The notes beneath the pieces were generated by a model that searched no databases, was not told the origin of the DNA, and saw nothing but the letters and a program-made list of their open reading frames with translations. The position numbers and the translations under genes were made by a program. Below, one piece after another: positions 6-60,261 of a stretch of 64,000 nucleotides of DNA. Positions within the stretch are counted from its first letter, which is position 1. Every line of letters begins with the position of its first letter. Location: assembly GCF_900112865.1 (NCBI RefSeq), contig NZ_FONH01000019.1:1-64000 (forward strand), in the 5' to 3' direction. Source of the stretch: Dyella marensis (lineage in GTDB: Bacteria > Pseudomonadota > Gammaproteobacteria > Xanthomonadales > Rhodanobacteraceae).

Positions 6-99
6 CGTAGGTTGGGGTGAGCCGCAGGCGAGCCCCAACATCGTCACCTTCATACGCCTCGCAGCGTTGGGGTTCGCCTGCGGCTCACCCCAACCTACG
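6..99. repeat. Palindromic intergenic repeat, family A, copy 1
   Basis: Two 34-base arms (6-39 and 66-99) are inverted copies of each other with one mismatch, separated by a 26-base unrelated loop. The outer ends read CGTAGGTTGGGGTGAG and its complement. Four more copies occur in this window, always between genes. No transposase of the REP-associated (RAYT) type is present here. The whole unit could form a very stable hairpin at the end of a transcript entering from the left edge. There is no U-tract, so classical termination is not evident. Confidence 0.9.
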
Positions 100-415: not shown

Positions 416-1291
416 TCACACACTGCTGTCGGCAATCGCCGACAACAACCGCCCATTCAGCGCACGCTGCTGCAACTGCCACGCGTCCAGCTCGCCCTGC
501 GGAATCGGCTCCTGCCCGTCCATCCCGCTCAGCAACCGCTTCCACCACGTGCGATAGCGATACGCCGACACCTCCCCGTTGATGTCGCTCGCGACAATCC
601 GCCCGCGCAGCGCCTCGATGATCGCCATCGCATGGTGCTCCTCCAGCCGCCCCTGATCCCAATTAGTGCGCGCCGTAGCCACGCTAAAGGCATCCTTGTC
701 GATCGACAGATAGGTCGGCTGCGGCGCGCGCCGCAACTGCTCCACAAACGCACAGGTCAACGCATCCGGATCCTCGAAACGGCGGAACGCATCCTGCAAG
801 CCGAGGCGCGCCGCCCAACCCACATCCACATCCATGCACCAGTAGCTGAGCTTGCCGGCGCGCAGCGGGCGCAGATAGTTCTCCCACGCATGCGCCGCGC
901 CGATGTCGGCGGAGGTGATGCCAACCACATGCACGTGATTCACATACGGCAGCATCGCCACCTTGCGCACCCACGATCCGCAATGGATACCCCACGGAAA
1001 ACGCATGTTGTCCGGATGGTTGTCGAATACCACCAGCTGGAACGGACCGCGCGCGCGCTGCCGCTCGACCAGCGGCCAGGTCAGGTGGTGGTAGTCGCCC
1101 GAGCCCATCAGCACCGTGCCGTGCTCGGCCGGCGCGGTCGCGGCGAGATGGCGGCGCAGGCGGTCGAAGGTGCGCAGCGTGCAGCCGAAGCGGATCGCTT
1201 CCTGCCAGTCGCCCAGCGGAATGGTGGTCGCACCCTCGATGGCGCCGATGGCGCCGTCGAAGTCCAGGATCAGCGGATCACGTTTGCGCAT
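416..1291 (-). CDS. Arginase-fold (UPF0489/ureohydrolase-like) protein
   Basis: A 291-residue cytosolic protein with no signal peptide. Three stretches look like a divergent ureohydrolase metal site: MGSGDYHHLT (in place of GGDHS), VVFDNHPDNM (DxHxD) and LSIDKDAFS (SxDxD). The family therefore probably binds two divalent metal ions, but the substrate cannot be read from the sequence. The overall style recalls the UPF0489 group of arginase relatives (from memory, not searched). Its ATG lies inside the end of the upstream acyltransferase gene (14-base overlap), so the two are co-translated. It is divergent from an ACP and ketosynthase pair, which suggests a role in building or trimming an amino- or guanidino-containing product. 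True arginase activity is possible but not shown. Confidence 0.75.
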   Translation of the reverse strand: MRKRDPLILDFDGAIGAIEGATTIPLGDWQEAIRFGCTLRTFDRLRRHLAATAPAEHGTVLMGSGDYHHLTWPLVERQRARGPFQLVVFDNHPDNMRFPWGIHCGSWVRKVAMLPYVNHVHVVGITSADIGAAHAWENYLRPLRAGKLSYWCMDVDVGWAARLGLQDAFRRFEDPDALTCAFVEQLRRAPQPTYLSIDKDAFSVATARTNWDQGRLEEHHAMAIIEALRGRIVASDINGEVSAYRYRTWWKRLLSGMDGQEPIPQGELDAWQLQQRALNGRLLSAIADSSV

Positions 1292-2345
1292 CGGATGGTG
1301 TCGGCGCCCATTGGCTGTCGCTTTCGAAGAGATGGCCCAGGCGCCGCGCCGCGGCGCGCAACAGCGGGTTGCGCAGCCAGACGGCGTGGCGGGTCAGGGT
1401 GAAGCTGGCGCCAAGATAGGACTTGACCTGAGGGTCGGTCCAGCCCGCCACGTAATGCGTCAGGCCGCGCTCGCGCGCCCAGGCCAGGTTGTGGAACCAG
1501 CTGGTGAAGTACAGGTTCTGCTCGCGCGCCTGCGGATAGGCGAAGCCGACGTACTTGTCGATCAGCTTGCCGTCGGCGACGAAGCACAGGTTCCAGCCGA
1601 TCATCTCGCCCTGGTGGCGGTAGACGAAGGCGAAGCCGCCGTTGCCGGCATCGCGCAGCACGGTGGCAAAGAAGGCGCGGCTGAGCTTGTCGAAGTGAAT
1701 CTCGCTTTGCGCGTACACGTTCTCGTACAGCGCATAGAACGCATCGAGCGTCGCCTCGTCGGCGAAACGCGCATCGCCGCAGGCCACCGTCTCCACGGCC
1801 ACCTCGTCGCGCTTGCGCAGCTTGCGGCGGATGTCCTTGCGGCGTGACGACGACAGGCGCGCGAGGTAGGCGTCTTCGTCGGCGAAATCGATCGCCACAT
1901 AGGCCAGCGCCTGGCCCTCCAGCAGCAGATAACCCTCCGCGCGACAGGCTTCGGCGAAACGCGCGCACCAGTCGCGGCTGGCGGCGCCGCACAGCGGGGA
2001 ATCCTGCGGAATGTCCTTCAGCACCAGCAGGCGCTGGCCGCTGCCCAGGTGTTGGCGCAGCGCGCCGGGCAGCACGGCGGGATCGGCTTCGCGCGGGAAC
2101 AGCGCGTACTCGGACACCGTGGTGCCGACGAAGGCGGTGCGCCAGCGCAGCAGCCGCCCCCACCAGCGATAGCCGGGCGCCTTCACCACGCGCTTGCGCA
2201 GCGCGTCGTCGGTGGTGGTGAGCAGATCGAACGGCGCCACGAAGGCCGGCGTGCCCTGCGCCTCGAGCAGCCGGAAGCCGAGCGGCGGATGCGCCGCGAA
2301 CGCCGCGACCAGGCCATCCGGTTCGAGTTGATTGAGATAACGCAC
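1278..2345 (-). CDS. GNAT/FemAB-like N-acyltransferase
   Basis: A 355-residue protein with the layout of the FemAB-like Acetyltransf_6 group. A basic stretch, SSSRRKDIRRKLRK, falls near the middle, followed by a GNAT-like core ending in LTHYVAGWTDPQVKSYLGA. Such enzymes transfer an acyl or aminoacyl group to an amine. An acyl-ACP donor is inferred only from the adjacent ACP gene. I chose the GTG at 2345, preceded by GGAAA, because the residues between it and the in-frame ATG at 2420 look non-coding and that ATG has no ribosome-binding site. The gene runs into the arginase-fold gene with a 14-base overlap. The reading frame stays open far upstream opposite the ketosynthase, but that part is antisense noise. 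Confidence 0.75.
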   Translation of the reverse strand: MRYLNQLEPDGLVAAFAAHPPLGFRLLEAQGTPAFVAPFDLLTTTDDALRKRVVKAPGYRWWGRLLRWRTAFVGTTVSEYALFPREADPAVLPGALRQHLGSGQRLLVLKDIPQDSPLCGAASRDWCARFAEACRAEGYLLLEGQALAYVAIDFADEDAYLARLSSSRRKDIRRKLRKRDEVAVETVACGDARFADEATLDAFYALYENVYAQSEIHFDKLSRAFFATVLRDAGNGGFAFVYRHQGEMIGWNLCFVADGKLIDKYVGFAYPQAREQNLYFTSWFHNLAWARERGLTHYVAGWTDPQVKSYLGASFTLTRHAVWLRNPLLRAAARRLGHLFESDSQWAPTPSDAQT

Positions 2346-2615
2346 GCCAGGTTTCCGCAGGTGGAGCGCCGCCGTCCGGGGCGCCGCGCGAATGATGCCC
2401 CAAGCCGGGCGCGGCAGCATGCCGGGACGGACTTTCGCGTCGCTTACCCGCCTCCGGGCCAGGCCCGCCAAAGCCTGGCGAAAGGCATCGCGCTCAAGAT
2501 TCGCCGGAAAGCCGGACCGTTGCGTCTGGACAAGCTTCCCGCGCTTGGTCAGGCTTGCCGGGTCGGCCGCACGGGGCGGCCCGGCGGCGCATGCCACGGA
2601 ACCGAGGGGCACCAA

Positions 2616-2867
2616 ATGAGCAATGTTCAGCAGGAAACCATCGAGATCATCGCCAAGCAGGCGAAGATCGAACTCGACACCATCAAGCCCGAGTCTACCC
2701 TCAAGGACCTGGGTGTCGCCTCGCTCGACGCCATCGAAGTGATCTTCGACATCGAGGAACATTTCGGCATCAACCTCCCCAACGAGGACACGGACTTCGA
2801 CAACGGCACCGTGGGCCAGCTGGTCGAAGCCGTCGAGCGCCAGCTCGCCGCCAAGAAGAACGACTGA
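2616..2867 (+). CDS. Acyl carrier protein, variant (ASL motif)
   Basis: An 83-residue acidic carrier protein with four predicted helices. The attachment serine for phosphopantetheine is Ser36 in LGVASLDAIEVIFDIEEHFG. The usual Asp before it (DSL) is Ala here. This makes it a dedicated, pathway-specific carrier rather than the main AcpP, whose gene normally sits in the fab cluster. The start is the ATG 5 bases after GAGGGGC. The ketosynthase gene follows after 3 bases, so the two form an operon. The 200-270 bp divergent region upstream (from 2346 or 2421 to 2615) must hold the promoters for both directions, but I see no strong consensus box. Confidence 0.9.
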   Translation: MSNVQQETIEIIAKQAKIELDTIKPESTLKDLGVASLDAIEVIFDIEEHFGINLPNEDTDFDNGTVGQLVEAVERQLAAKKND

Positions 2868-2870
2868 TCC

Positions 2871-4085
2871 ATGCAGCGTCTCGTCATCACCGGCATGGGC
2901 GCGATCTGCGCGCTCGGCAACGACGCGCCCTCGGTCTGGCAGGCCATGACCGAGGGCCGCACCGGCATCGCCCCGATCTCCCGCGTGGATCCCGAGCGCG
3001 TGCGCGCGGCCGGCGTGGTGGCCGAGGTCAAGGGCTTCGACCCCGGCCAGCACTTTGACGAAGCCAAGCTCAGCCAGCTCGACCTGGCCACGCAATACGC
3101 CCTGGTCGCCGCCAAGGAGGCAATCGCGCAGGCCGGGCTGTCGTTCGAAGGCGAACGCGCCTCGCGCACTGCGGTAGTGATCGGCAGCGGCGTGGCCGGC
3201 GAGGTGACGCGCGACACCCAGTACCACCGGATCTACGCGGAGAAAGCGCCGCGCGTGCACCCGCTGGGCATCATCCGCATGATGATGAATGCACCGGCCA
3301 GCCAGATCAGCATGGCGCACGGCATCACCGGCCCGGCCTTCGTGGTGGCGAGCGCCTGCGCCTCGTCCAACCACGCCTTCGCACAGGCCGCGATGATGAT
3401 CCGCTCCGGCCTGGTCGACGCCGCCGTGGTCGGCGGCACCGAGGCCTGTCTCAACCTGGGCACCCTGCTCGCATGGGAAGCCATGCGCGTGCTGGCGCCG
3501 GATACCTGCCGGCCTTTCAGCAAGGGCCGCCGCGGCATCGTGCTGGGCGAGGGCTCGGCCATGTTCGTGCTGGAAACACTGGAACAGGCGCAGGCACGCG
3601 GCGCGACCATCCTGGCGGAACTGGTCGGCGCCGGCATGAGTTCGGACGCGGGCGACATCGCCGCGCCATCGGAACTCGGCGCCGCGGCAGCTATCGAGAA
3701 CGCGCTGCGCGACGGCAACATGTCGCCGTCCGAAGTGGACTACGTCAGTGCGCACGGCACCGGCACGCTGGCCAACGACAGCACCGAGACCGCGGCGCTG
3801 CATCGGGTGTTCGGCGAGCATGCGCGCGCGCTGGCGATCTCCTCCACCAAGCCGATGCACGGCCACGCGCTGGGCGCCTCCGGCGCGCTGGAGCTGGTCG
3901 CGGTGATCGGCGCGCTGCGCAACGGCATCGTGCCGCCCACGCTGGCCTATCTCGAAGCCGATCCGGCCTGCGACCTGGACTACGTGCCGCACCATGCGCG
4001 CAACATGCCGGTGCATGCGGCGATCAGCAATTCCTTCGCCTTCGGCGGACTCAATGCGGTGGTGGCGCTGCGGCGCATGCCTTGA
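2871..4085 (+). CDS. Beta-ketoacyl-ACP synthase (FabF/KAS II-like)
   Basis: A 404-residue condensing enzyme of the KAS I/II family. The catalytic triad is visible: Cys163 in SACASSNHAF, His295 in SAHGTGTLAND and His332 in KPMHGHALGASG. It catalyses decarboxylative condensation of malonyl-ACP with an acyl primer. The neighbouring variant ACP is the likely partner. Because it sits outside a fab cluster and beside an acyltransferase and an arginase-fold protein, I infer a specialised product rather than bulk fatty acids. No ketoreductase, dehydratase or thioesterase is next to it, so those steps would be borrowed from housekeeping enzymes or not needed. Confidence 0.9.
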   Translation: MQRLVITGMGAICALGNDAPSVWQAMTEGRTGIAPISRVDPERVRAAGVVAEVKGFDPGQHFDEAKLSQLDLATQYALVAAKEAIAQAGLSFEGERASRTAVVIGSGVAGEVTRDTQYHRIYAEKAPRVHPLGIIRMMMNAPASQISMAHGITGPAFVVASACASSNHAFAQAAMMIRSGLVDAAVVGGTEACLNLGTLLAWEAMRVLAPDTCRPFSKGRRGIVLGEGSAMFVLETLEQAQARGATILAELVGAGMSSDAGDIAAPSELGAAAAIENALRDGNMSPSEVDYVSAHGTGTLANDSTETAALHRVFGEHARALAISSTKPMHGHALGASGALELVAVIGALRNGIVPPTLAYLEADPACDLDYVPHHARNMPVHAAISNSFAFGGLNAVVALRRMP

Positions 4086-4330: not shown

Positions 4331-4738
4331 TTAGCTCACCAGCAAAGGCAGCAACTGTTCGCGGCTGAGCCGCGCGATCGGCAAGTCGCCCGGCTGCGCT
4401 GGATCCACCCAGCACAGCGCCTCGATCTCCGCCCTCGCCTCGAACGGCCCATCGGCCGCCACTTCGTAGACCACCGCCACGACTTCGCAGCCGGGCTCGT
4501 TCGCCGCCGGCGCGCTGAAGCTGCCGAGCAGGCGCGCGCCTTCGCGCCGCATGCGGCAGCCGAGTTCTTCTTCCAGTTCGCGCGCCAGCGTGTGCAGGTC
4601 GTCGGCATCGCCGGGATCGCGCTTGCCGCCGGGCTGCTGGAACACCGCCGCGCCGCGCTTGCGCACCAGCAGCACGCGGCCCTCGGCGTCGCGGATCATC
4701 GCCGCGACGATCTCGATGCGCGTCGTCGTCGCGCTCAC
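4331..4738 (-). CDS. Nudix hydrolase (MutT-like), second gene of pair
   Basis: A 135-residue single-domain Nudix protein. The Nudix box begins GGKRDPGD and ends RELEEELG. It keeps the REUxEExG core, but the usual ExGE is DPGD, so the metal site is conservative rather than canonical. Members cleave nucleoside diphosphates linked to another moiety, and the substrate is unknown. I place the start at the GTG (4738), which overlaps the stop codon of the preceding Nudix gene as GTGA. This is a typical translational-coupling junction. An upstream ATG would lie well inside that gene and is less likely. Confidence 0.85.
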   Translation of the reverse strand: MSATTTRIEIVAAMIRDAEGRVLLVRKRGAAVFQQPGGKRDPGDADDLHTLARELEEELGCRMRREGARLLGSFSAPAANEPGCEVVAVVYEVAADGPFEARAEIEALCWVDPAQPGDLPIARLSREQLLPLLVS

Positions 4739-5223
4739 AGCCGCGAGAACGCCCACGACTGCATGCGCCCGTCCTTATACGGCATCACCCCGTGGAACGG
4801 CCGCGGATCGCCGTCGAATACCAGCGGCAGGAAGTGCCGGTCGCCCTCCCACATCGGCAGTTCCATCAGCCGGTCGAGCTCCACCCATTCGAGCGTGCCC
4901 TCGGGATTGGACGCGAAAGGCTCGCCGCTGTAGCGGTCGATCACGAAGATGAAACCGAGCCAGTCCTCGCCGTGCTTGCCGAAGCCGGGCCAGTTCAGCG
5001 TGCCGCGCAACTGCATCGACGCGCATTCGATGCCCGCTTCTTCGTGGATCTCGCGCCGCATGCACGCGGCGATGTCCTCGCCCGGCTCCATCTTGCCGCC
5101 CAGGCCGTTGTACTTGCCCAGGTGCAGGTCGTCCTGACGCGCGTTGCGATGAATCATCAGCACCCGGCGGCGATCCGGCGAGAGCACATAACCGAGTGTG
5201 GCGACGATGGGTGTGTAGGGCAT
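4735..5223 (-). CDS. Nudix hydrolase, 8-oxo-dGTP diphosphatase-like
   Basis: A 162-residue Nudix protein with a complete Nudix box (GGKMEPGED ... RREIHEEAGI, about residues 37-62). The start of the domain (LGYVLSPDRRRVLMIHRN) and the LGKYNGLGGKMEPGE segment match the MTH1/MutT-like group that hydrolyses oxidised purine nucleoside triphosphates to monophosphates. That activity is inferred from family resemblance. The start is the ATG at 5223, just before PYTPIVATLGYV. It overlaps the next Nudix gene by four bases. Two different Nudix enzymes made from one message suggests paired sanitation of related substrates. Confidence 0.88.
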   Translation of the reverse strand: MPYTPIVATLGYVLSPDRRRVLMIHRNARQDDLHLGKYNGLGGKMEPGEDIAACMRREIHEEAGIECASMQLRGTLNWPGFGKHGEDWLGFIFVIDRYSGEPFASNPEGTLEWVELDRLMELPMWEGDRHFLPLVFDGDPRPFHGVMPYKDGRMQSWAFSRL

Positions 5224-5485
5224 GGCGTGGGGCGCGGGGAGAAAGCGGCAGTCTAATCGGGCTTGTACGCGACAGGCCATGCCGGCGCTCGCAAGAAGTC
5301 TTGAGATTGCGGTTGCGGCATATCTGTAGCAGACCATCGACGGCAATCGAAAACCGCTCTTCCGGACGATAAGACCAGGGTTTTCGGGCATGCGGAAATT
5401 GCTGGGCGCCATGTCCGGATACATATTCGAACTCGCTCAACACGCAAAAGTTTCCAGCTTAAGCCCACATCAGCGAGATCGAACT

Positions 5486-6897: not shown

Positions 6898-9318
6898 ATG
6901 CCCCGAGCCCGACGCTTCCGCTGGCTGCGCGCCCTGCTGCTGTCCCTGCTGTTCGTCGCCATCGCGGTGCTCGCCGCAGGCTGGTACCTGCTCGCCGGCA
7001 GCCGCGCGAAGCTCGACGGCGAAGTCGCCGTGCGAGGCCTAGGCGACACGGTAAGCATTTCGCGCGACAGCCTGGGCACCGCCACCATCGATGGGAAGAG
7101 TCGCGACGACGTCACCTACGCGCTCGGCTATGTGCACGCGCAGGAACGTTTCTTTCCGATGGATCTGATGCGCCGCGTCGCCGCGGGCGAGCTGGCGGAA
7201 CTGGTCGGCCCGGCGGCCGTGGATACCGATATCGAGCATCGCCGGCATCGCCTGCGCGCCACCGCGCAGGCGGCGCTGGCGCAGCTGCCGCCGGAACAGC
7301 GCCGTACGCTGGAGCTGTATGCCGACGGGGTGAATCGCGGCCTGGCCGACCTGCAGGTCAGGCCCTGGGAATACTTCCTGCTCGGCACCCGGCCGCAGCC
7401 ATGGCGTCCGGAAGACAGCTTCCTGGTGATCGGCGCGATGTACCTGGACCTCAACGGCGACGGCAGCAACCAGCGCGAGCTGGCCTTCGCGCAGATGCGC
7501 TCGGCGCTGCCCTCGCCCCTGGTGGATTTCCTGCTGGCGCCGGATCCGGAATGGGAAGCGCCCTTGCAGGGCGATCTCTCGCACCCGCCGGTGCCGCCGG
7601 GGCCGGACGTGATCAACCTGCGCGACCGCCCCACCGCCTCCAGCTCGGACGCCAGCGCGCTCGCCGCGCTGGCCGGCGCGCTCGACCAGCCGCATCCGGG
7701 CAGCAATAACTTCGCCGTGGCTGGCCGGCTGACCGAGAGCGGTGCGGCGATCCTCGCCAACGACATGCACCTGGGCCTGCGCGTGCCGGACATCTGGTTC
7801 CGCACGCGCCTGCGCTACGCCGACCCGTCTGCGCCGAACGGCCGCCGCGACGCCAGCGGCGTCAGCCTGCCCGGCACGCCGGCCCTGGTCGCCGGTTCCA
7901 ACGGGCAGGTCGCGTGGGGCTTCACCAACAGCTACGGCGACTGGCTGGACTGGGTGCGCGTGCTGCGCGATCCGCAGGACGCGACGCGCTACCGCGTGCC
8001 CGAAGGTTTCGCCGCGATCGAGACGCACGAGGAAACCATCCGTGTCAAAGGCGCGGCGCCGCGCACGATCAAGGTGGAGACCACGCGCTGGGGCCCGATC
8101 CTGGCCCAGGACACCGACGGCACGCCGCTGGCGCTGGCCTGGATCGGCGATCTGCCGCGCGGCTACAACCTCGGCGTGATGCAGCTGGAGCACGCGGTCA
8201 GCGTCAACGCAGCGCTCGACCTCGCGCCGAGCCTGGGCATGCCGCCGCAGAACCTGCTGGCGGCCGACAGCGCCGGCAATATCGGCTGGACCATCACCGG
8301 CAACAGCATTCCGCTGCGCAGCGGCTTCGACCCGCTGCTGCCGGCCGACTGGTCCAGGCCGGACACCGGCTGGCTGGGCTGGGCCGCGCCCGCGCAGTAC
8401 CCGCGCATCGAGAACCCGGCGGACGGGCGCCTGTGGACCGCCAACAACCGCACCGTCGACGGCGCGGCGCTGGCCCTGCTCGGCGAAGGCGGCCATGACC
8501 TGGGCGCGCGCGCGCAGCAGATCCGCGACGGCCTGCGCGCGCGCAGCAGCTTCGCGGCGGGCAACCTGCTGGACATCCAGCTCGACCACCGCGCCCTGCT
8601 GCTGGTGCGCTGGCAGCGCCTGCTGCAGGACGCGCTGGCCGGCACCACCGATCCGCAGCTGGCGCAGCTGCGCCAGCTCACCGCCAGCTGGCGCGGCCGC
8701 GCCGCGGCCGACAGCGTGGATTACCGGCTGGTACGCGCGTTCCGCGACAAGGTGCACGAAGCGGTATTGGCGCCGTTCGCCGCGGAAGTGAGCGAGCGCT
8801 ACAAGGATTTCAGCTGGCCGCGCCCCAGCCACACCGAAGCGGCCGTGTGGGCCATGGTGCGCGACCGTCCCATGCATCTGCTCGATCCGCGCTATGCGGA
8901 CTGGAACGCGCTGCTGCAGGACGCCGCGCGCCAGGTCGTCGACGAACTGGGCAAGCAGCCCGGCGGTCTCGCCGCGCGCAGCTGGGGCGAGATCAACCGC
9001 ACCGGCGTCCGCCATCCGCTGTCGCGCGCGCTGCCGTCATTCGCCGGCCGCTGGCTGGACATGCCGGACGAGCCCCTGCCCGGCGACGACAACATGCCGC
9101 GCGTGGCGCGCCCCGGCTTCGGCGCGTCCGAGCGGCTGGACGTGGCGCCCGGGCACGAAGCGCAAGGCATCCTGGAGCTGCCCGGCGGCCAGAGCGACAA
9201 TCCGCTGTCGCCCTACTACGGTGCGGGGCATGCGGACTGGGTCAACGGCCGGCCGACCCCGCTGCTGCCGGGGCCGGACCAGCATGTGCTGACGCTGCGC
9301 CCCATCGGGAAGCCGTAA
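6898..9318 (+). CDS. Penicillin acylase family (Ntn-hydrolase) protein
   Basis: An 806-residue membrane-anchored or exported Ntn-hydrolase. One hydrophobic segment (about residues 10-34) is followed by the alpha region (YALGYVHAQERFFPMDLMRR), a spacer, and the autocatalytic junction PHPGSNNFAVAG. Ser269 would become the new N-terminal nucleophile of the beta chain after self-processing. Later segments such as FTNSYGDWLDWVRV and LLAADSAGNIGWTITG are typical of the family. Known relatives cleave amide-linked acyl groups: beta-lactams, acyl-homoserine lactones or lipopeptides. The substrate here cannot be told apart from sequence alone. Quorum quenching is one possibility. Confidence 0.9.
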   Translation: MPRARRFRWLRALLLSLLFVAIAVLAAGWYLLAGSRAKLDGEVAVRGLGDTVSISRDSLGTATIDGKSRDDVTYALGYVHAQERFFPMDLMRRVAAGELAELVGPAAVDTDIEHRRHRLRATAQAALAQLPPEQRRTLELYADGVNRGLADLQVRPWEYFLLGTRPQPWRPEDSFLVIGAMYLDLNGDGSNQRELAFAQMRSALPSPLVDFLLAPDPEWEAPLQGDLSHPPVPPGPDVINLRDRPTASSSDASALAALAGALDQPHPGSNNFAVAGRLTESGAAILANDMHLGLRVPDIWFRTRLRYADPSAPNGRRDASGVSLPGTPALVAGSNGQVAWGFTNSYGDWLDWVRVLRDPQDATRYRVPEGFAAIETHEETIRVKGAAPRTIKVETTRWGPILAQDTDGTPLALAWIGDLPRGYNLGVMQLEHAVSVNAALDLAPSLGMPPQNLLAADSAGNIGWTITGNSIPLRSGFDPLLPADWSRPDTGWLGWAAPAQYPRIENPADGRLWTANNRTVDGAALALLGEGGHDLGARAQQIRDGLRARSSFAAGNLLDIQLDHRALLLVRWQRLLQDALAGTTDPQLAQLRQLTASWRGRAAADSVDYRLVRAFRDKVHEAVLAPFAAEVSERYKDFSWPRPSHTEAAVWAMVRDRPMHLLDPRYADWNALLQDAARQVVDELGKQPGGLAARSWGEINRTGVRHPLSRALPSFAGRWLDMPDEPLPGDDNMPRVARPGFGASERLDVAPGHEAQGILELPGGQSDNPLSPYYGAGHADWVNGRPTPLLPGPDQHVLTLRPIGKP

Positions 9319-53593: not shown

Positions 53594-56500
53594 TCAGCGC
53601 GCCGAGCTGCTCGCCGGCGCCGGTGCGGTGAGGGGTGCGGGAGCCGTGGACGACGCGGCTTCCGCGGCGGAGAGGTTCTTCTTCTCCACCAGCGAAATAT
53701 CCGGCTTATCCCAGCTGCCGCCGATGTGATAGCGCGCGCTGGCCACGCGGTTGAGACCGCGTCCGAGCAGTCCCTGCGCGACGAAACCCGCGGCCGCGCC
53801 GAGCGGCCCGGCCACCACCGCGCCGACGATCGGCAGGCTGCTGCCCAGATGCGGGATCACCAGCGCCTGCTGGTCGTAGTCCTTCGCGCGCAGGCCGGTG
53901 CGCCCCTTGATATTGATCTCCGCCGCCGGTCCGCGCATGGACAGGTTGTTGGTGGTGGCGTTGCCGTCGGCCAGCACGAAGTCGCCGGTGATCGAGTCGA
54001 ACGCCAGCCCCTTGCCGAACACGTCGCCGAAATCCAGGGTCAGGCGGCGCGGCAGCTCCACCAGCGACACCAGGCCGAACAGACGGCCTACGCCGGGGGC
54101 GACCTCGGGAATGCTGCCGTCGGTAACCTGGATGCCGAGCTTGCCGTCCATGTTGGCCAGCTCCATCGCCGACGGCGCGCCGGGCCAGGTGGCGTCCAGG
54201 TGCGCGCGCGTCTTGCCGCCGTTGAACAGGCCGGCGAAGCCGAACGCGCCGAGCATGTCGCCGAGGTTTTCCGCGGCGAAATCGATGCGCAGATGGCTGC
54301 GGCTGCTGGTCGCCGTGCCGTCCCAGTCGCCGCTGCCGTTGATCTGCACGCTGCGCGACTGCGCGCGCAGCTGGTCGATATGCAGGCCGCGGTCGGTCGG
54401 CCAGGTTTCCAGGCGCGCCTCGCCGAGCCTGGATTCGCCGAAGCGCAGGTCGCCGACCCAGAGGTGGAACGGCGGCAGGGACGATGGCGTGATGCCGGTG
54501 TTGGCCGGATCGGTCTTCGGCGGGTCGCCGGGATTGGTCTTGGCGTCGCTGGAGCGGCCGCTGGTCTTGGGCCAATACAGCCGCTGCAGGCGTGCGGTGA
54601 CGCCGCGCTTGTCGAGATCGTCGGTGGGCACGATGAAACGCCCGACGATATCCGCGCTGTCCACGTCCACGTTCAACTGCCCGCTCTCCGGCGCGGCCTG
54701 GATGCGCATCGACGGAAACGGATGGCCGAACAGCTCGGCCTGGTCCGCGCTCACGTCGATGCTCTCCAGCCCCGGCCCGCCGGTGCTGCTGCCGGCCACG
54801 GCGCGCTGCACCCAGCCGGTGACGTCCATGCGCGCGGCGCGCCCGCGCACGCGGATGCCCTTGTCCGGCACGGTGTCGGGCATGCGCGTGCCGAAGGCGA
54901 AACTCGCGGCCAGCGGGCGCTTGTCGTCAGGCAGGCGGAAGCGCTGGCGCATCACCTGGCCCAGCGCGATCTGCAGGTCGCCGCCCGACACCGGCAAGGT
55001 CAGCGCCAGGTGCGTCGGCAGGCTGGCGTCGGCGGATTTCTTCAGCGGCGCCGGCAGGTCCAGCGCCATGCCGGCGAAGTTGGTGTCCAGGGTCAGCAGC
55101 TGCGCGGCATTGGCCACGGTGTCCGGGCGCACGATGTCGAAGCCCACGGTGGTGTCGCTGCGGCCGCTGGCGACGTCTTTCAGCCAGTCCAGCTGGGACA
55201 GTCCCTGCACCAGCTCGGCCATGCCGTAGCGGCCGCTGAGGCGCGCGGAGAACTCGGTGTCCGGCCGGCCGGTGGCGCCGGCGATGGCGATGTCCAGCTT
55301 GGACGGCTGGCCGCGGAATACGGTGTCCAGCGCCCCGGCGCGGAAGCCGTGCCCGTCGAAGCTCGCCTGGCCGCTGATCTTGTCGAGCTTGAGGTTCCAG
55401 TCCGGCGCGTTGAGGTCGACGTCCTTCAGGTCGGTAGTGCCGTTGAGGAAGAATTCCCTGGCGTTGTTCATCGGCAGCGAGAGATGGAAATCGAAGGTGC
55501 CGGCGCCGCCCAGGCTGAGCTTGTTGAGGGTGTCGGCCTGGCGGCTGCCGATCGGGCTGTGCTTGACGAAATCCATCAGGCTGGCGCCGCTGCCGGAGCC
55601 GTGCACGTTGAGGTCCAGCACGGTATGGGCCAGATCCGGAATCACCGCCACCGCCCGCTCGGTCTTCACGCCCAGCGATTCGCCGCCGCTGGCTTCGACC
55701 AGCATGCTGTTGTTGACGAAGTTGGCGACCGCGTCGATACCCTCGGCGCGCGGCCAGTTCCTGCCGTAGTCCAGGCTCAGCCCGCTGAGCTCGGCGCGGG
55801 CTTCGAAGCGGCCTTCGTTGGCGTGGAACGGCCAGTCCTTCAGGTCGCCGCGCACCAGCATGTCGCTGCGCTCGATCTTGCCGGCGACCAGCGCGCGGTC
55901 CAGCCATTCGATCGCCTGCGGCGACATGGAATCGATCGGCCAGAACAGCTTGGCCGCATCCATGTCGGCGTGGTCGAGCATGGCGTACAGATCGAGGAAA
56001 GGACGTCCGCCCGCATCGGGCAGACGGATCTCGCCGCGCGCCTGCCCGCCGAAGCCCGCGCCGACGAAGTCCAGCGGCTCGATGCCGAGATGCCAGTCGC
56101 CGTCCTCATGCCATGCCGCGATATCGCCTGCCAGGCGCGACAGCGCGAAGGGCTTGCGGAAGGTACGCGGGAACCGCAGCACGGTGGCCTGCGGCGGCAG
56201 CTCGACCGACAGCGCGCCAGCGTCGCCGCGCAGCACGCCGTCGAGACGGTCGATGCCGGGCAGCTTGCCCACCGCGTCGATGCCCAGGCCGCTGAAGCCG
56301 ACATTGGCGCTGGCCAGGCCGTCGGCACGCGTCCAGCGCAGCGCCACCTGGCCGAGCTTGCCGCGCGGCTTGCCGGTGCCCAGCCACTGCGCCATGCCCG
56401 GCGACAGCTCGGGCTTGAGCGCTGCCCACGGCGCCAGCGCGCCGAGCTGCAGGTCGCGCGCCGCGATCAGCGCCTCGTCGGCATGGCCGTCGGCGCCGTT

Positions 56501-57460
56501 GTGCACGTCCAGTACCAGCGCGCCGCCGTCGTCCGCACCCCAGCGCACGCGCAAACCCTGCGCGGTCTTGTTCATGTCGCCCAGCGCATGCAGCGAGGCC
56601 ACCCGCGCCTGGTGTCCCGCGGGATTGGTCAGTGCCAGTCCGTCGAGGTCGAGGCGGGTGAGGTTGCGCACCACTTTCGCGTCGCGCCAGTCCAGCCAGC
56701 TGGCGAACGTACCGTTGCCGCTGTCCACCGTATAGCCGCCCAGGTCGATGCCCGCGGCGAAGGCGCGCAGGTCCACCTTGCTGCCGGCGATCCACAGCCG
56801 GCCGTCGGCGCCGTCCTCGCGGAAGTTGCCGGCGCCGCGCAGCTCGCCGGCCACGCCTTCGCGCTGCAGGATCGCGCCGACGCGCACGCGGCCGCCCTGC
56901 CGGCTCACACGCAATTGCCTGGCCAGCAGCGCGTAATGCTTGCCGGTGGTTTCGTCGGCGATGTCCAGGCGCAGGTCGCGCAGCCACAGCTCGACCGACA
57001 GGCGGCCGAACGAAGGATTCTGGCGCTCGCCGCCGCCGGCCACGCCGATGCCGTTGACGTGCCAGCTGCCGTCCTTGCCGCGCGCCAGGTCCAGTTGCAT
57101 GCCGCGCACGCGCAGGTTGACCAGGTGGCGCGCCGGCATCAGCCAGCCGCCAAGATCCAACTTCAGTTCCGTCTCCGGAATGCTCAGCGCGCTTTCGCCC
57201 GGGCCCGCGGCCACCACCGTATTGCGCATCACGAACAGCGGGCCGGACGGTTCCCAGCGCCCTTCCAGCGAGGCGAACGAGACCGGCCGCTCCAGCAGCC
57301 GGCTCAGCTGCGCCGCCACCCATTGCGGATGGCTGGCCAGGGTCGGCAGCAGCAGCTGGATCAGCCCGGCGAGCACGGCCAGGCTGATCACGGACACGCC
57401 CAGCACCCAGCCCAATGCGCGGGCGATCCGGTGCAGGCGCTGGCGCACGGAAACGTTCAC
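53594..57460 (-). CDS. yhdP: YhdP family AsmA-like envelope protein
   Basis: A 1288-residue protein with one N-terminal membrane segment (about 16-38) and a very long periplasmic body. The beta-rich repeats and the region HLRIDFAAENLGDMLGAFGF belong to the YhdP/TIGR02099 and AsmA2 group. In E. coli YhdP helps move phospholipid to the outer membrane. The N-terminus (RLLERPVSFASLEGRWEPSG) is conserved. It ends with a Pro/Ala/Ser tail. rng lies 24 bases upstream and is co-transcribed. Confidence 0.93.
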   Translation of the reverse strand: MNVSVRQRLHRIARALGWVLGVSVISLAVLAGLIQLLLPTLASHPQWVAAQLSRLLERPVSFASLEGRWEPSGPLFVMRNTVVAAGPGESALSIPETELKLDLGGWLMPARHLVNLRVRGMQLDLARGKDGSWHVNGIGVAGGGERQNPSFGRLSVELWLRDLRLDIADETTGKHYALLARQLRVSRQGGRVRVGAILQREGVAGELRGAGNFREDGADGRLWIAGSKVDLRAFAAGIDLGGYTVDSGNGTFASWLDWRDAKVVRNLTRLDLDGLALTNPAGHQARVASLHALGDMNKTAQGLRVRWGADDGGALVLDVHNGADGHADEALIAARDLQLGALAPWAALKPELSPGMAQWLGTGKPRGKLGQVALRWTRADGLASANVGFSGLGIDAVGKLPGIDRLDGVLRGDAGALSVELPPQATVLRFPRTFRKPFALSRLAGDIAAWHEDGDWHLGIEPLDFVGAGFGGQARGEIRLPDAGGRPFLDLYAMLDHADMDAAKLFWPIDSMSPQAIEWLDRALVAGKIERSDMLVRGDLKDWPFHANEGRFEARAELSGLSLDYGRNWPRAEGIDAVANFVNNSMLVEASGGESLGVKTERAVAVIPDLAHTVLDLNVHGSGSGASLMDFVKHSPIGSRQADTLNKLSLGGAGTFDFHLSLPMNNAREFFLNGTTDLKDVDLNAPDWNLKLDKISGQASFDGHGFRAGALDTVFRGQPSKLDIAIAGATGRPDTEFSARLSGRYGMAELVQGLSQLDWLKDVASGRSDTTVGFDIVRPDTVANAAQLLTLDTNFAGMALDLPAPLKKSADASLPTHLALTLPVSGGDLQIALGQVMRQRFRLPDDKRPLAASFAFGTRMPDTVPDKGIRVRGRAARMDVTGWVQRAVAGSSTGGPGLESIDVSADQAELFGHPFPSMRIQAAPESGQLNVDVDSADIVGRFIVPTDDLDKRGVTARLQRLYWPKTSGRSSDAKTNPGDPPKTDPANTGITPSSLPPFHLWVGDLRFGESRLGEARLETWPTDRGLHIDQLRAQSRSVQINGSGDWDGTATSSRSHLRIDFAAENLGDMLGAFGFAGLFNGGKTRAHLDATWPGAPSAMELANMDGKLGIQVTDGSIPEVAPGVGRLFGLVSLVELPRRLTLDFGDVFGKGLAFDSITGDFVLADGNATTNNLSMRGPAAEINIKGRTGLRAKDYDQQALVIPHLGSSLPIVGAVVAGPLGAAAGFVAQGLLGRGLNRVASARYHIGGSWDKPDISLVEKKNLSAAEAASSTAPAPLTAPAPASSSAR

Positions 57461-57484
57461 CGGCGGCTCTCGCCGCGCGGTGAA

Positions 57485-58978
57485 CTAGAGGAGAACCACA
57501 TCGAACTGTTCCTGCGAATAATGCTCTTCGGCCTGGAAGCGTATGCTCTTGGAGATGAACTCTTCCAATTCGGCCACGGCCACCGATTCCTCTTCGAGGA
57601 TGCGGCCGACCACCTTCGGGCTGGCCATTACCAGCAGTTTTTCCGCGTTGAACTGACGCACCGCGCGGGTGATCTCGCGGAAGATCTCGTAGGTCACCGT
57701 CTCGGCGGTCTTCACCGCGCCACGGCCGCCGCAGGCAGGGCACGGCTCGCACAGCTGGCGTTCCAGGCTTTCGGTGGTGCGCTTGCGCGTCATCTCCACC
57801 AGGCCCAGCGCGGACATCGGATACACCGTGGTCTTGGCGTGGTCGCGCTGCAGGCCTTTTTCCAGCATGCGCAGCACCTGGCGCTTGTGCTCCTCGTCGG
57901 TCATATCGATGAAGTCGATGATGATGATGCCGCCGAGGTTGCGCAGCCGCAGCTGGCGCGCCGCAGCCTGCGCGGCTTCGAGATTGGTGCGATAGACGGT
58001 CTCTTCCAGGTTGCGCGTGCCGAGGTAGCCGCCGGTGTTGACGTCGATCGTGGTCATCGCCTCGGTCTGGTCGACGATCAGGTAGCCGCCGGATTTCAGC
58101 GGCACTTCTTTCTTCAGCGCGCGCTGGATCTCGTCTTCCACGCCGTACAGGTCGAAGATCGGGCGTTCGCCCGAATAGTGCTCGACGCGGTCGTCCAGGC
58201 TGGGCATGAACTTGTGCACGAACTTGACGACCTTCTCGTAGGTCTCGCGCGAATCCACCCGCACCTTCTCGATGTCGTCGTTGAGCATGTCGCGCAGGCT
58301 GCGCAGCGGCAGCGAGAGTTCCTCGTAGACGCGCTCGCCGACCTTGGACTTGGCGATGTTCTCCTGCACCACGCGCCACACCTTGCCCAGGTAGGTGACG
58401 TCGAAGGCGAGCGACTCGGCGGTCTGCTCCTCGGCGTTGGTGCGCACGATGTAGCCCAGCGGGTTCTCGCCGATCAGCGAGGTCATCACCTCTTTCAGGC
58501 GCTGGCGCTCGGCCTCGTCCTCGATGCGCGCGGAAATGCCCAGCGTGCGCGCATGCGGCAGCAGCACCAGGTAGCGCGACGGGATGGACAGATGGGTGGA
58601 CAGCCGCGCGCCCTTGGTGCCGATCGGGTCCTTCACCACCTGGACCACGATCTCCTGCCCTTCATGCACCAGCTCGGTGATCGACGGCGTGGGGCCGTTG
58701 CCGGCTGGTACCACGACCGCCTCGGCGCCTTCGGCGACCACCGGCAAGGGCGGACGCACGATGTCGGAGGCGTGCAGGAACGCCGCGCGCTCCAGGCCGA
58801 TATCGACGAACACCGCCTGCATGCCCGGCATCACGCGCTGCACGCGACCCTTGTAGACATTGCCCACATAGCCGCGGCGGGAGGCTCGCTCGACATGCAC
58901 TTCCTGCAGCATGCCGTTTTCCACCACGCCGACGCGGGTTTCGCGCGGCGTCACATTGATCAGAATCTCTTCACTCAC
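57485..58978 (-). CDS. rng: Ribonuclease G
   Basis: A 497-residue endoribonuclease for 16S rRNA 5' maturation and mRNA decay. It has an S1 domain (GYVGNVYKGRVQRVMPGMQA), the RNase E/G catalytic core (TIDVNTGGYLGTRN and GGIIIIDFIDM, with the metal-binding Asp residues) and a Zn-link cysteine pair in CEPCPACGGRG. It lacks the long tail of RNase E, so it is the G type. The start is the ATG at 58978. A weak promoter sits about 25 bases upstream. Confidence 0.96.
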   Translation of the reverse strand: MSEEILINVTPRETRVGVVENGMLQEVHVERASRRGYVGNVYKGRVQRVMPGMQAVFVDIGLERAAFLHASDIVRPPLPVVAEGAEAVVVPAGNGPTPSITELVHEGQEIVVQVVKDPIGTKGARLSTHLSIPSRYLVLLPHARTLGISARIEDEAERQRLKEVMTSLIGENPLGYIVRTNAEEQTAESLAFDVTYLGKVWRVVQENIAKSKVGERVYEELSLPLRSLRDMLNDDIEKVRVDSRETYEKVVKFVHKFMPSLDDRVEHYSGERPIFDLYGVEDEIQRALKKEVPLKSGGYLIVDQTEAMTTIDVNTGGYLGTRNLEETVYRTNLEAAQAAARQLRLRNLGGIIIIDFIDMTDEEHKRQVLRMLEKGLQRDHAKTTVYPMSALGLVEMTRKRTTESLERQLCEPCPACGGRGAVKTAETVTYEIFREITRAVRQFNAEKLLVMASPKVVGRILEEESVAVAELEEFISKSIRFQAEEHYSQEQFDVVLL

Positions 58979-59002
58979 CGAACACTCCCCTCTCGGAGGG
59001 TC

Positions 59003-59031
59003 TTTATAGCGGCTGGGCGGACGGGCGTCGA
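59003..59031 (-). promoter_or_regulatory. Candidate rng-yhdP promoter
   Basis: On the minus strand, TCGACG (59031-59026) and TATAAA (59008-59003), 17 bases apart, about 25 bases before the rng ATG. The gap 58979-59154 contains no gene. Confidence 0.4.
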
Positions 59032-59154
59032 TGCGCCAGTGCGCAGCCCGCCAACCCCGTCGTGCCAGCGCCCGCCACCGGACCGGCCGGCGCGGAAGCT
59101 GCGTTCCCTCAGACAGGACCGGCGGGTGCGGGGTTCACGCCGGAACGCCGCCGG

Positions 59155-60261
59155 CTAGGGCCCGGCCGCCGGTGCCGGGCCGCCGGCCGGCGCGTCGTCG
59201 GGTTCGCGCTCCCACTGGATCCGGGTGCGCGGGAGGTACTGGGGATATTCGCGCTGGACGAAGGCGATCAGCCCTTCGCGGATGCGGCAGCGCAGGTCCC
59301 AGCCCTGGCCGGAGTCGGCCGAGCTGACCAGGGCGCGCAGTTGCATGGCGCGGTCGCCGGCGTCGACCACCTGCAGCACGCAGACGCGGCGGTCCCATTC
59401 CCTGGCCTCCTCGCACAGGCGCTCCAGCTCGGCGCGCAGGGGCGGCACGGGCAGGCGGTAATCGACCCACAGGAATACCGTGCCGATCAGCTGGGAGCTG
59501 CGGCGCGTCCAGTTCTCGAACGGGTTCTCGATGAACCAGTTCAGCGGCACCACCAGCCGGCGCTCGTCCCAGATGCGCACCACCACGTAGGTGCCGGTGA
59601 TCTCCTCGATGCGGCCCCATTCGCCCTTCACGATCACCACGTCGTCCAGCCGGATCGGCTGGGCCAGGGCGATCTGCAGGCCGGCGATCAGGTTGCTCAG
59701 CACCGGCTTGGCGGCGATGCCCAGCGCCAGGCCGGCAAGGCCGGCCGAGGCCAGCAGGCTGGCGCCGAACTGGCGCACCCCGGGGATGGTCATCAGCACC
59801 GCAGCCAGGCCGGCCAGGATGAACAGCACCATGGTCGAGCGGCTGAGCACCCGGACCTGGGTGACTACGCTGCGGGCGCGCAGGTTGTCGGCCTGGTCGA
59901 CCGGGTGCAGGCGGATCACCAGGTCTTCCAGGGCGCCGATGCAGCGCACTACCAGCCAGGTGAGGGTGGCGATCAGCGCCACCAGCAGCGCATGGTGGAG
60001 ATCGCCCATCAAGCGCAGCGACTCCACATCCGGCGTGACGCGCAGCGCCACCGACACGGTCAGCAGCGGCACCAGCCATTCCATCGGCGCATTGGCGCGG
60101 CTGACCATGCCGTAGGCAGCCGGATGCCGGCGCGACAGCCGCCGCAGCACGGCGCGCGCCACGCGGCGCAGCACGAAGGCCAGCGCCAGCGCGACCGCCA
60201 CCGTGATGCCGAGGCGGCCAAGCAGATGGTCGTTCCAGAAAGCGGCGAAGTCGGTAGCCAT
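59155..60261 (-). CDS. MscS-family mechanosensitive channel
   Basis: A 368-residue membrane protein with four or five N-terminal helices. The pore helix and beta domain show the family signature ASLLASAGLAGLALGIAAKP, LSNLIAGLQIALAQPIRLDD, VVIVKGEWGRIEEITGTYVV. It would open under membrane tension to release solutes. The last residues form a short Pro/Ala-rich tail. It is convergent with nothing on the left and divergent from the Dph6-like gene on the right. Confidence 0.92.
   Translation of the reverse strand: MATDFAAFWNDHLLGRLGITVAVALALAFVLRRVARAVLRRLSRRHPAAYGMVSRANAPMEWLVPLLTVSVALRVTPDVESLRLMGDLHHALLVALIATLTWLVVRCIGALEDLVIRLHPVDQADNLRARSVVTQVRVLSRSTMVLFILAGLAAVLMTIPGVRQFGASLLASAGLAGLALGIAAKPVLSNLIAGLQIALAQPIRLDDVVIVKGEWGRIEEITGTYVVVRIWDERRLVVPLNWFIENPFENWTRRSSQLIGTVFLWVDYRLPVPPLRAELERLCEEAREWDRRVCVLQVVDAGDRAMQLRALVSSADSGQGWDLRCRIREGLIAFVQREYPQYLPRTRIQWEREPDDAPAGGPAPAAGP

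Follow-up and report, generated by a model that had tools for sequence, protein, structure and literature searches.

What do four tightly packed genes at the very start of a Dyella marensis contig make, and do they act alone? The genes lie in a window of 64,000 nucleotides (the whole stretch of DNA analyzed, C42:1-64000, where C42 is contig NZ_FONH01000019.1) and encode a protein of the arginase family (ARG), a FemAB-like transferase (FEM), a variant acyl carrier protein (ACP) and a ketosynthase (KAS). A preliminary description of this DNA had treated them as a four-gene unit which may make an N-acyl amino-acid or guanidino lipid. Comparison with relatives confirmed that genes of this set are conserved together, within Lysobacterales and beyond, and indicates at the level of sequence that the conserved unit is larger than the four genes of the window. 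We tentatively read the cluster, with somewhat less than even confidence, as part of a multi-gene biosynthesis-and-export system across proteobacteria whose product would be an exported acyl-containing amino compound.

Matches to ARG were obtained in 46 of 99 related genomes, that of the window included (47 matches). Around 40 of these 47 matches, stretches were compared, one per genome and each chosen for its ARG match; they were 16 kb long, with four shorter. FEM was present in all 40 and adjoined ARG in 36, and in L049-L052 EamA and hydrolase genes lie between the two. Three of these genomes (L049, L050 and L051) carry a compact same-strand series, ARG-EamA-hydrolase-FEM-EamA-ACP-KAS, in which ARG and FEM are approximately 30% identical to those of the window. 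ACP and KAS were found in 28 of the 40 stretches. Because this pair stays near ARG and FEM in changing orientation and on either side, the arrangement argues for selection on linkage and not plain inheritance of gene order. Other members were EamA-2 (31 stretches), the hydrolase (31), DegT (28), EamA-1 (28), a class III aminotransferase (20) and a HAD protein (19), and clustering of open reading frames (ORFs) from 37 of the 40 stretches returned an alpha/beta hydrolase, small EamA proteins and a DegT aminotransferase as further constant neighbours.

A second set was assembled by scanning named genome contigs with the ARG alignment, which confirmed at least 562 relatives; the best 80 were used. 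This set shares several genomes with the 40 stretches and is not independent of them, and its counts are lower bounds, as some loci end at contig ends. ARG and FEM were present at all 80 loci, followed by DegT (65), EamA-2 and the hydrolase (63 each), EamA-1 and the class III aminotransferase (61 each), HAD (54), and ACP and KAS (39 each). Exporter and regulator genes were recovered by tblastn using Herminiimonas and Lampropedia proteins as queries: adaptor at 38 loci, permease at 37, outer-membrane factor at 37 and, with partly generic matches, ABC ATPase at 46, kinase at 30 and regulator at 23. The hosts include Dyella, Rhodanobacter, Luteibacter, Stenotrophomonas and Xanthomonas in Lysobacterales; Delftia, Acidovorax, Variovorax, Pigmentiphaga and Herminiimonas in Burkholderiales; and Pseudomonas luteola, Pseudomonas asuensis, Wohlfahrtiimonas, Frischella and Orbus. 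Taken by group, and with the plasmid-borne clusters included, the core occurs in Lysobacterales, Burkholderiales, Pseudomonas, Orbaceae, Rhizobiaceae, Bartonella and Roseomonas. The ACP/KAS pair was observed beside the core only in Lysobacterales and unplaced metagenome-assembled genomes, and all named hosts of the pair among the 80 loci are Lysobacterales. The pair was rejected as a universal part of the core since it was not found in the compared DNA of 41 of the 80 loci, where ARG and FEM occur without it. The four-gene unit of the preliminary description gives way to a larger set.

With respect to co-occurrence across the 99 relatives, a strong FEM match (E<1e-50) was found in 46 of 46 genomes with ARG and 2 of 53 without, the hydrolase (E<=1e-60) in 46 of 46 and 6 of 53, and the class III aminotransferase (E<=1e-150) in 40 of 46 and 5 of 53. 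The FEM threshold is passed by 48 genomes; 81 of the 99 match at E<=1e-3, and the other 33 score no better than 3e-17. The association holds within the family of the window (59 genomes; Fisher 3e-11, 4e-7 and 2e-4, kinship ignored). In wider draws, in which at most 6 candidates per genome were scored so that misses are possible, the ARG profile matched 3 of 369 genomes across the class, all of the window's order, and 17 of 398 across the phylum (one only at 4e-4), own genome included in both. The distribution of the system looks patchy, not universal. In another class of the phylum, loci L161 and L162 (genomes G639 and G642) have ARG, EamA, hydrolase, class III aminotransferase and HAD genes adjoining, with FEM also present in L162.

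The full cluster can be read in one piece on a Xanthomonas sacchari plasmid, in the order kinase, TolC family, ABC ATPase, HlyD adaptor, hydrolase, EamA, EamA and DegT, followed by arginase family and GNAT (both reversed), ACP, KAS, then class III aminotransferase and MtnX-like HAD phosphatase (both reversed). The permease, missing from the annotated gene table, was recovered by tblastn. Searches of plasmids added Rhizobium, Agrobacterium, Bartonella and Roseomonas to the hosts. On Agrobacterium fabrum pAt, regulator and ATP-binding (kinase-like) genes are accompanied by HAD, class III aminotransferase, arginase family, EamA and hydrolase genes, continuing with GNAT, EamA, TolC, permease, ATPase and adaptor. 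This core recurs in two Rhizobium operons, both with an internal fatty-acid desaturase and one also with a cyclopropane-synthase-family gene; Pfam analysis of the first operon gave FA_desaturase at E 1.7e-28 and CMAS at E 2.9e-90. Among the five alphaproteobacterial clusters read, a desaturase was present in two and a cyclopropane synthase in one of those two. In Bartonella the aminotransferase, GNAT and ARG genes are consecutive, with an MBOAT O-acyltransferase gene nearby. The Roseomonas cluster comprises adjoining DegT, DMT and hypothetical genes, an aminotransferase in two ORFs, HAD, ARG (annotated as hypothetical), the hydrolase and a 961-aa GNAT ORF, and an undecaprenyl-diphosphate phosphatase gene lies beside it.

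In the D. marensis genome the cluster is spread over contigs C42, C25 and C33. DegT, two EamA genes and the hydrolase are at C25:9089-11954, and C33 carries, as relatives identified by tblastn, the class III aminotransferase, HAD, outer-membrane factor, permease, ATPase, adaptor, regulator and kinase. In a sister genome (G003) sequences matching the ends of C25 and C42 adjoin, and the hydrolase and ARG lie approximately 11.6 kb apart on one contig; approximately 9 kb (C25:1-9088) therefore probably separates the two cluster halves in D. marensis. The hydrolase and ARG are also approximately 13 kb apart in G001 and G005, and DegT directly follows ARG in G002 and G004. Sequence comparison shows directly which genes belong to the set, that they are conserved and that in this genome they lie on these three contigs.

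Features of the window locus are collected in Table 1. Base 1 of the window is base 1 of C42, and the contig ends 415 bases past the ARG stop, so the cluster is truncated on its left side. A 34-base inverted repeat (window 6-39 and 66-99, 97% complementary) is present at this end, and such terminal repeats may have caused the assembly break. Pfam matches and coordinates bear out the arrangement first described, with a 14-base overlap of ARG and FEM (1278-1291) and a 3-base spacing between ACP and KAS. The FEM frame also has an upstream in-frame ATG at 2420; the homologues start close to the position of the GTG. For the shared control region also proposed, the divergent layout holds, but a scan of 2330-2640 for sigma-70 sites and terminators found none, and the region is therefore presumed from layout.

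Table 1. Coordinates and predicted products of the window locus.
Feature	Position	Strand	Description	Pfam evidence
ARG	416-1291	-	ureohydrolase (arginase)-fold metal hydrolase (predicted), 291 aa	PF00491 Arginase E 1.2e-7
FEM	1278-2345	-	FemAB-like double-GNAT transferase (predicted), 355 aa, GTG start	PF04339 FemAB_like, PF13480 (Acetyltransf_6)
Divergent gap FEM/ACP	2346-2615	.	270 bases; control region presumed from gene layout	
ACP	2616-2867	+	variant acyl carrier protein, 83 aa	PF00550 E 1.5e-12
KAS	2871-4085	+	ketosynthase, FabF (KAS II) kind, 404 aa	PF00109 E 1.9e-49, PF02801 E 1.1e-33

ARG scored 31.9 bits against PF00491 (cut-off 22). Its putative metal-ligand motifs GSGDxHH, DNHPD and IDKD are invariant across 17 aligned rows (30-83% identity to the window protein, two rows partial) and align by hmmsearch with the arginase metal-ligand motifs GGDH, DxHxD and DxD. 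The AlphaFold2 model (predicted local distance difference test, pLDDT, 92.4) matched ureohydrolase-type structures (VIA Z 18.6-20.2 among the 50 entries shown), as did Foldseek. When solved structures were searched, the ARG profile gave weak arginase and agmatinase matches and phmmer gave nothing relevant. While ARG thus has the fold and metal-ligand motifs of ureohydrolases (arginase, agmatinase, proclavaminate amidinohydrolase, formimidoylglutamase), it falls far under the cut-off of the agmatinase equivalog TIGR01230 (14.7 versus 174.3 bits), no arginase equivalog model was among its NCBIfam matches up to E 5, and it carries two motifs of its own: HCGSW and NWDQG do not vary among the 17 rows and read NCGAW and NWEQG in Roseomonas. 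The acidic residue E240 is replaced by D in rhizobia, Roseomonas and L058. From sequence and model together ARG is likely a metal hydrolase and not an arginase proper, and an ornithine-making arginase, as first suggested, is not supported.

FEM matched PF04339 (E 3.2e-13; 50 bits, cut-off 27) and PF13480 (E 4e-13); at E<=1 only these and PF04377 were returned, and the OlsB-type family PF13444 was not found. The FEM model (pLDDT 90.8) has two fused GNAT domains in the FemABX/MprF arrangement. Its top structural matches were the streptothricin-type aminoacyl-tRNA-dependent enzymes Sba18 and Sbb17 (Z 17.3-17.7; for Sba18, Z 17.7 with 253 residues aligned and a root-mean-square deviation of 3.2), with MprF/aaPGS and FemX/FemA at Z 15.3-16.9. 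The first 23 structural rows span Z 15.3-17.7 over 241-279 residues, and one of them (2hqy) has no known function. While the fold over most of FEM is that of aminoacyl-tRNA-dependent double-GNAT transferases (FemX, MprF/aaPGS, Sba18/Sbb17, BD-12 Orf11), FEM is 10-18% identical to these enzymes and phmmer against solved structures found nothing relevant; use of tRNA by FEM is a prediction from the modeled fold. GNAT enzymes which use coenzyme A (CoA) or pantetheine carry a loop motif, [QR]xxGx[GA]. Before the NLY helix this motif is missing in all 16 FEM rows, 5 of which have chance matches at other places; of two ordinary GNAT controls, one lacks it as well. FemX and its relatives are described as double-GNAT enzymes in which the tRNA helix is basic and one lysine is key (PMC12945691). 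FEM has a very basic helix at 166-181, beside the second GNAT domain, which appears similar in character to that of FemX, and its K308, invariant in 16 rows, is a candidate counterpart of the catalytic Lys305 of FemX. The modeled structure favours aminoacyl-tRNA as donor. Because PF13444 is lacking and the nearest folds are aminoacyl-tRNA-dependent, acyl-ACP is not the default donor for FEM; it is possible but not favoured, and the same applies to the earlier proposal of a GNAT using acyl-ACP in the manner of OlsB. In Roseomonas mucosa the FEM homologue (L182:9896-12781) is the 961-aa ORF, the second half of which resembles by eye a sensor histidine kinase; transferase and sensor are apparently fused there.

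The ACP of the window has ASL instead of DSL at its phosphopantetheine site and was rightly called a variant. Of 120 loci queried, in two sets which share some genomes, 68 had an ACP match; there the first ?SL[DEG] match was ASL in 50 and DSL in 4, and none of the 22 NCBIfam models listed for the window ACP reached its own cut-off. KAS passes the KAS II subfamily NF005589 (401.2 versus 387). A housekeeping FabF was rejected, as KAS is below the fabF equivalog TIGR03150 (426 versus 493.75) and only 39% identical to its nearest paralogue in the same genome. Identity to the KAS genes listed from rhizobial plasmids was 48.0-50.8%. KAS is thus closer to nod-cluster KAS (48-51%) than to its own FabF-type paralogue, but this is not specific, as Paracoccus and Pseudorhodobacter KAS reach 50.5-52.5%. 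The rhizobial relatives lie inside nodA-B-C-I clusters in two of the three records opened; in the third (R. etli NXC12) no nod gene was listed within 4 kb of KAS. One of the Paracoccus/Pseudorhodobacter KAS, that of P. ferrooxidans, lies beside an lpxD-like gene. The ACPs beside the three rhizobial KAS have QSL, HSL and DSL, and NodF-position ACPs are therefore also without DSL in two of three cases. The ACP-KAS pair is of the same general type as NodF/NodE, which supply with NodA the chain of rhizobial Nod factors and its N-transfer. It differs in that the 26 cluster KAS group apart from the rhizobial three, with weak support (81/97), in a tree with very long outgroup branches whose rooting was not used; in that the annotated X. 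sacchari cluster has no nod genes; and in that FEM is a double-GNAT FemAB-like protein, unlike NodA.

In one alternative, FEM would depend on acyl-ACP and N-acylate, with the chain made by ACP/KAS, either an amino acid or a guanidino compound connected with the ARG product, by analogy with NodF/NodE plus NodA or with FeeM/OlsB. Two rhizobial records place ACP/KAS relatives beside nodA-family N-acyltransferase genes, the pair lies near ARG and FEM in 28 of the 40 relatives' stretches, and the lower structural matches of FEM include the acyl-CoA-using N-myristoyltransferase. Set against this are the missing PF13444, best folds among aminoacyl-tRNA enzymes and the 41 of 80 loci with FEM and no ACP/KAS in the compared DNA, and we consider the alternative unlikely. 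In the lipid of the preliminary description the acyl part is plausible, while N-acylation of ornithine or a guanidino compound is possible and not favoured.

Herminiimonas members encode an FtsX-domain permease and an HlyD-type adaptor, and a complete FtsX-type tripartite ABC exporter (FtsX, HlyD, ABC ATPase, TolC family) was found as tblastn relatives on C33 and, with all parts annotated, in A. fabrum. MacAB-TolC and the cyanobacterial glycolipid exporter DevBCA-TolC are FtsX-type ABC/HlyD/TolC exporters, and the same permease, adaptor, ATPase and TolC family set stands beside the biosynthetic genes here. A lipid-like exported amino compound is suggested because an FtsX/TolC exporter and a pair of small transporters accompany acyl-chain enzymes in more than one lineage. 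An acyl part of the product is plausible, with KAS/ACP in one lineage and desaturase or cyclopropane synthase in another.

In the scheme we propose, the class III aminotransferase, together with the DegT aminotransferase in many lineages, and the HAD phosphatase would yield an amino-bearing core, and ARG would hydrolyze, in a metal-dependent manner, a C-N bond of this core or its precursor. In Lysobacterales a special acyl chain would be built by the ACP-KAS pair, acting like NodF/NodE in Nod-factor synthesis; in some rhizobia, acyl chains may instead be tailored by the desaturase and cyclopropane-synthase-type enzyme. The bond made by FEM would be an amide (or an ester), and the donor most probably an aminoacyl-tRNA. 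The product may be flipped by the pair of small EamA proteins and trimmed or turned over by the alpha/beta hydrolase, and the FtsX-type ABC/HlyD/TolC pump, under a two-component system, would send it outward. It would be an aminolipid or lipo-amino compound, either secreted or located in the envelope. A bolder version is that the cluster represents a widespread, undescribed, tRNA-dependent class of aminolipid, in which FEM would add an amino acid from aminoacyl-tRNA to an amino-lipid core, ARG would perform a new C-N hydrolysis on it, the chain would be set by lineage-specific acyl modules (ACP/KAS, or desaturase and cyclopropane synthase) and export would proceed by a dedicated flippase pair and TolC-coupled pump; this we regard as doubtful.

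Another reading is a secreted product which is not a lipid, such as an amino-sugar or peptide-like antibiotic or a metallophore, to which FEM would add an amino acid from tRNA as in streptothricin or BD-12, with ACP/KAS and desaturase as occasional decorations. Sbb17 and Sba18, the closest folds to FEM, were solved with streptothrisamine, DegT finds its best NCBIfam matches, which fall below cut-off, among sugar aminotransferases such as PseC, and a tripartite exporter would suit such a molecule. This is improbable in view of acyl-chain enzymes in separate lineages and, in the X. sacchari, A. fabrum, Bartonella, Rhizobium and Roseomonas stretches, of no annotated non-ribosomal peptide synthetase, nucleoside diphosphate (NDP)-sugar dehydratase or nucleotidyltransferase, the plasmid gene tables being incomplete. 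No more probable is a modification of the envelope under stress, in which an existing membrane lipid or lipid-linked sugar is aminoacylated or amino-modified in an MprF/Arn-like manner. MprF/aaPGS are among the best folds for FEM, the EamA pair resembles ArnE/ArnF and DegT resembles ArnB-type enzymes (all below equivalog cut-offs), two-component genes adjoin the cluster and the Roseomonas cluster has its undecaprenyl-diphosphate phosphatase neighbour; a TolC-type outer-membrane component, however, points to release, and ACP/KAS would not be needed. Finally, arginase and class III aminotransferase families also adjoin in arginine catabolism, but chance housekeeping neighbours, namely arginase and ornithine aminotransferase for arginine breakdown beside a spare fatty-acid gene pair, are scarcely credible, being largely contradicted by linkage and co-occurrence kept over 28-95% identity and two classes and by the ARG scores, and plain arginine catabolism was rejected on these grounds.

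Several observations weigh against an exported acyl-containing amino compound made in the manner proposed. The search for ACP/KAS which found neither in the compared DNA of 41 of the 80 loci included hidden Markov models (some contigs are short); the Burkholderiales, Pseudomonas, Stenotrophomonas and Orbaceae loci compared had neither within up to 9 kb, neither was found in 12 of the 40 relatives' stretches, and no desaturase is annotated in the A. fabrum operon. KAS may have a function other than a Nod-like one, as the Paracoccus and Pseudorhodobacter enzymes are equally close. For FEM, CoA and acyl-CoA users appear lower among the structural matches (VipF Z 14.3, mycothiol synthase 13.5, N-myristoyltransferase 12.6), Foldseek template-modeling scores are moderate (about 0.5), and its profile gave only chance matches against solved structures, with no tRNA-dependent enzyme up to E 10. 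H103 of the ARG motif HCGSW is N in Roseomonas. The X. sacchari EamA proteins score at best 27.7 and 28.2 bits against ArnE/ArnF cut-offs of 92 and 99. Linkage is also imperfect: G029 and G058 have FEM, hydrolase and class III aminotransferase without ARG, G022, G042 and G054 have hydrolase and class III aminotransferase without FEM or ARG, and six genomes with ARG have no strong class III aminotransferase match. The five genomes without ARG could hold partial or decaying systems or a smaller core; FEM of G029 is fragmented.

Other genes of the window were noted. A penicillin amidase-family gene (6898-9318, +; PF01804 E 2.4e-142) is close to the cluster and a relative of it is near the cluster in seven of eight close-relative stretches (L021-L028). 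Enzymes of this type are able to cleave N-acyl amides, and a link to the cluster is conceivable. On the KAS side, 4331-5424 (-) holds two overlapping ORFs, a Nudix protein (4331-4756, PF00293) and a second ORF (within 4735-5424) which is Nudix-like by eye; KAS-proximal relatives occur in five and seven of the same eight stretches, respectively. Between this pair and the amidase is a phosphodiester glycosidase gene (NAGPA, PF09992; 5862-6833, +). An 1810-aa open frame at 53726-59158 (+) had no Pfam match at E<=1e-5 and is perhaps a shadow frame of GC-rich DNA.

With respect to known aminolipids, a 2024 review states that the first step is often catalyzed by a Pfam 13444 N-acyltransferase such as OlsB, with 3-hydroxyacyl-ACP, and speaks of OlsB/OlsA, OlsF, GluB, GlsB and SalA routes (PMC11631085); none of these routes has the make-up of the window cluster. 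Ornithine and glutamine lipid synthesis (OlsB/OlsA, GlsB) and FeeM-type N-acyl amino acid synthases share with our proposal the idea of a product combining an amino acid and an acyl chain. Differences are that FEM is not PF13444 and that clusters of the window type bring aminotransferases, transporters and an exporter of their own; in the X. sacchari, A. fabrum, Rhizobium and Roseomonas stretches the annotation shows no OlsA-type acyltransferase. A literature search on the gene set, its product and N-acyl amino acids, covering open-access papers, found no description of the cluster in the titles and abstract openings listed. Up to approximately 14 linked genes recur from Dyella and Xanthomonas to Delftia, Acidovorax, Frischella, Orbus, Stenotrophomonas, Rhizobium, Agrobacterium and Bartonella, and the cluster points to a lipid-like molecule, undescribed in those papers, in many bacteria associated with plants, animals and soil. 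Since the gene set is compact and falls into acyl, core, transporter and export modules which can be separated, gene deletion and mass spectrometry could be used to look directly for the product. Such a product would show a NodFE-like chain-building pair working outside nodulation.

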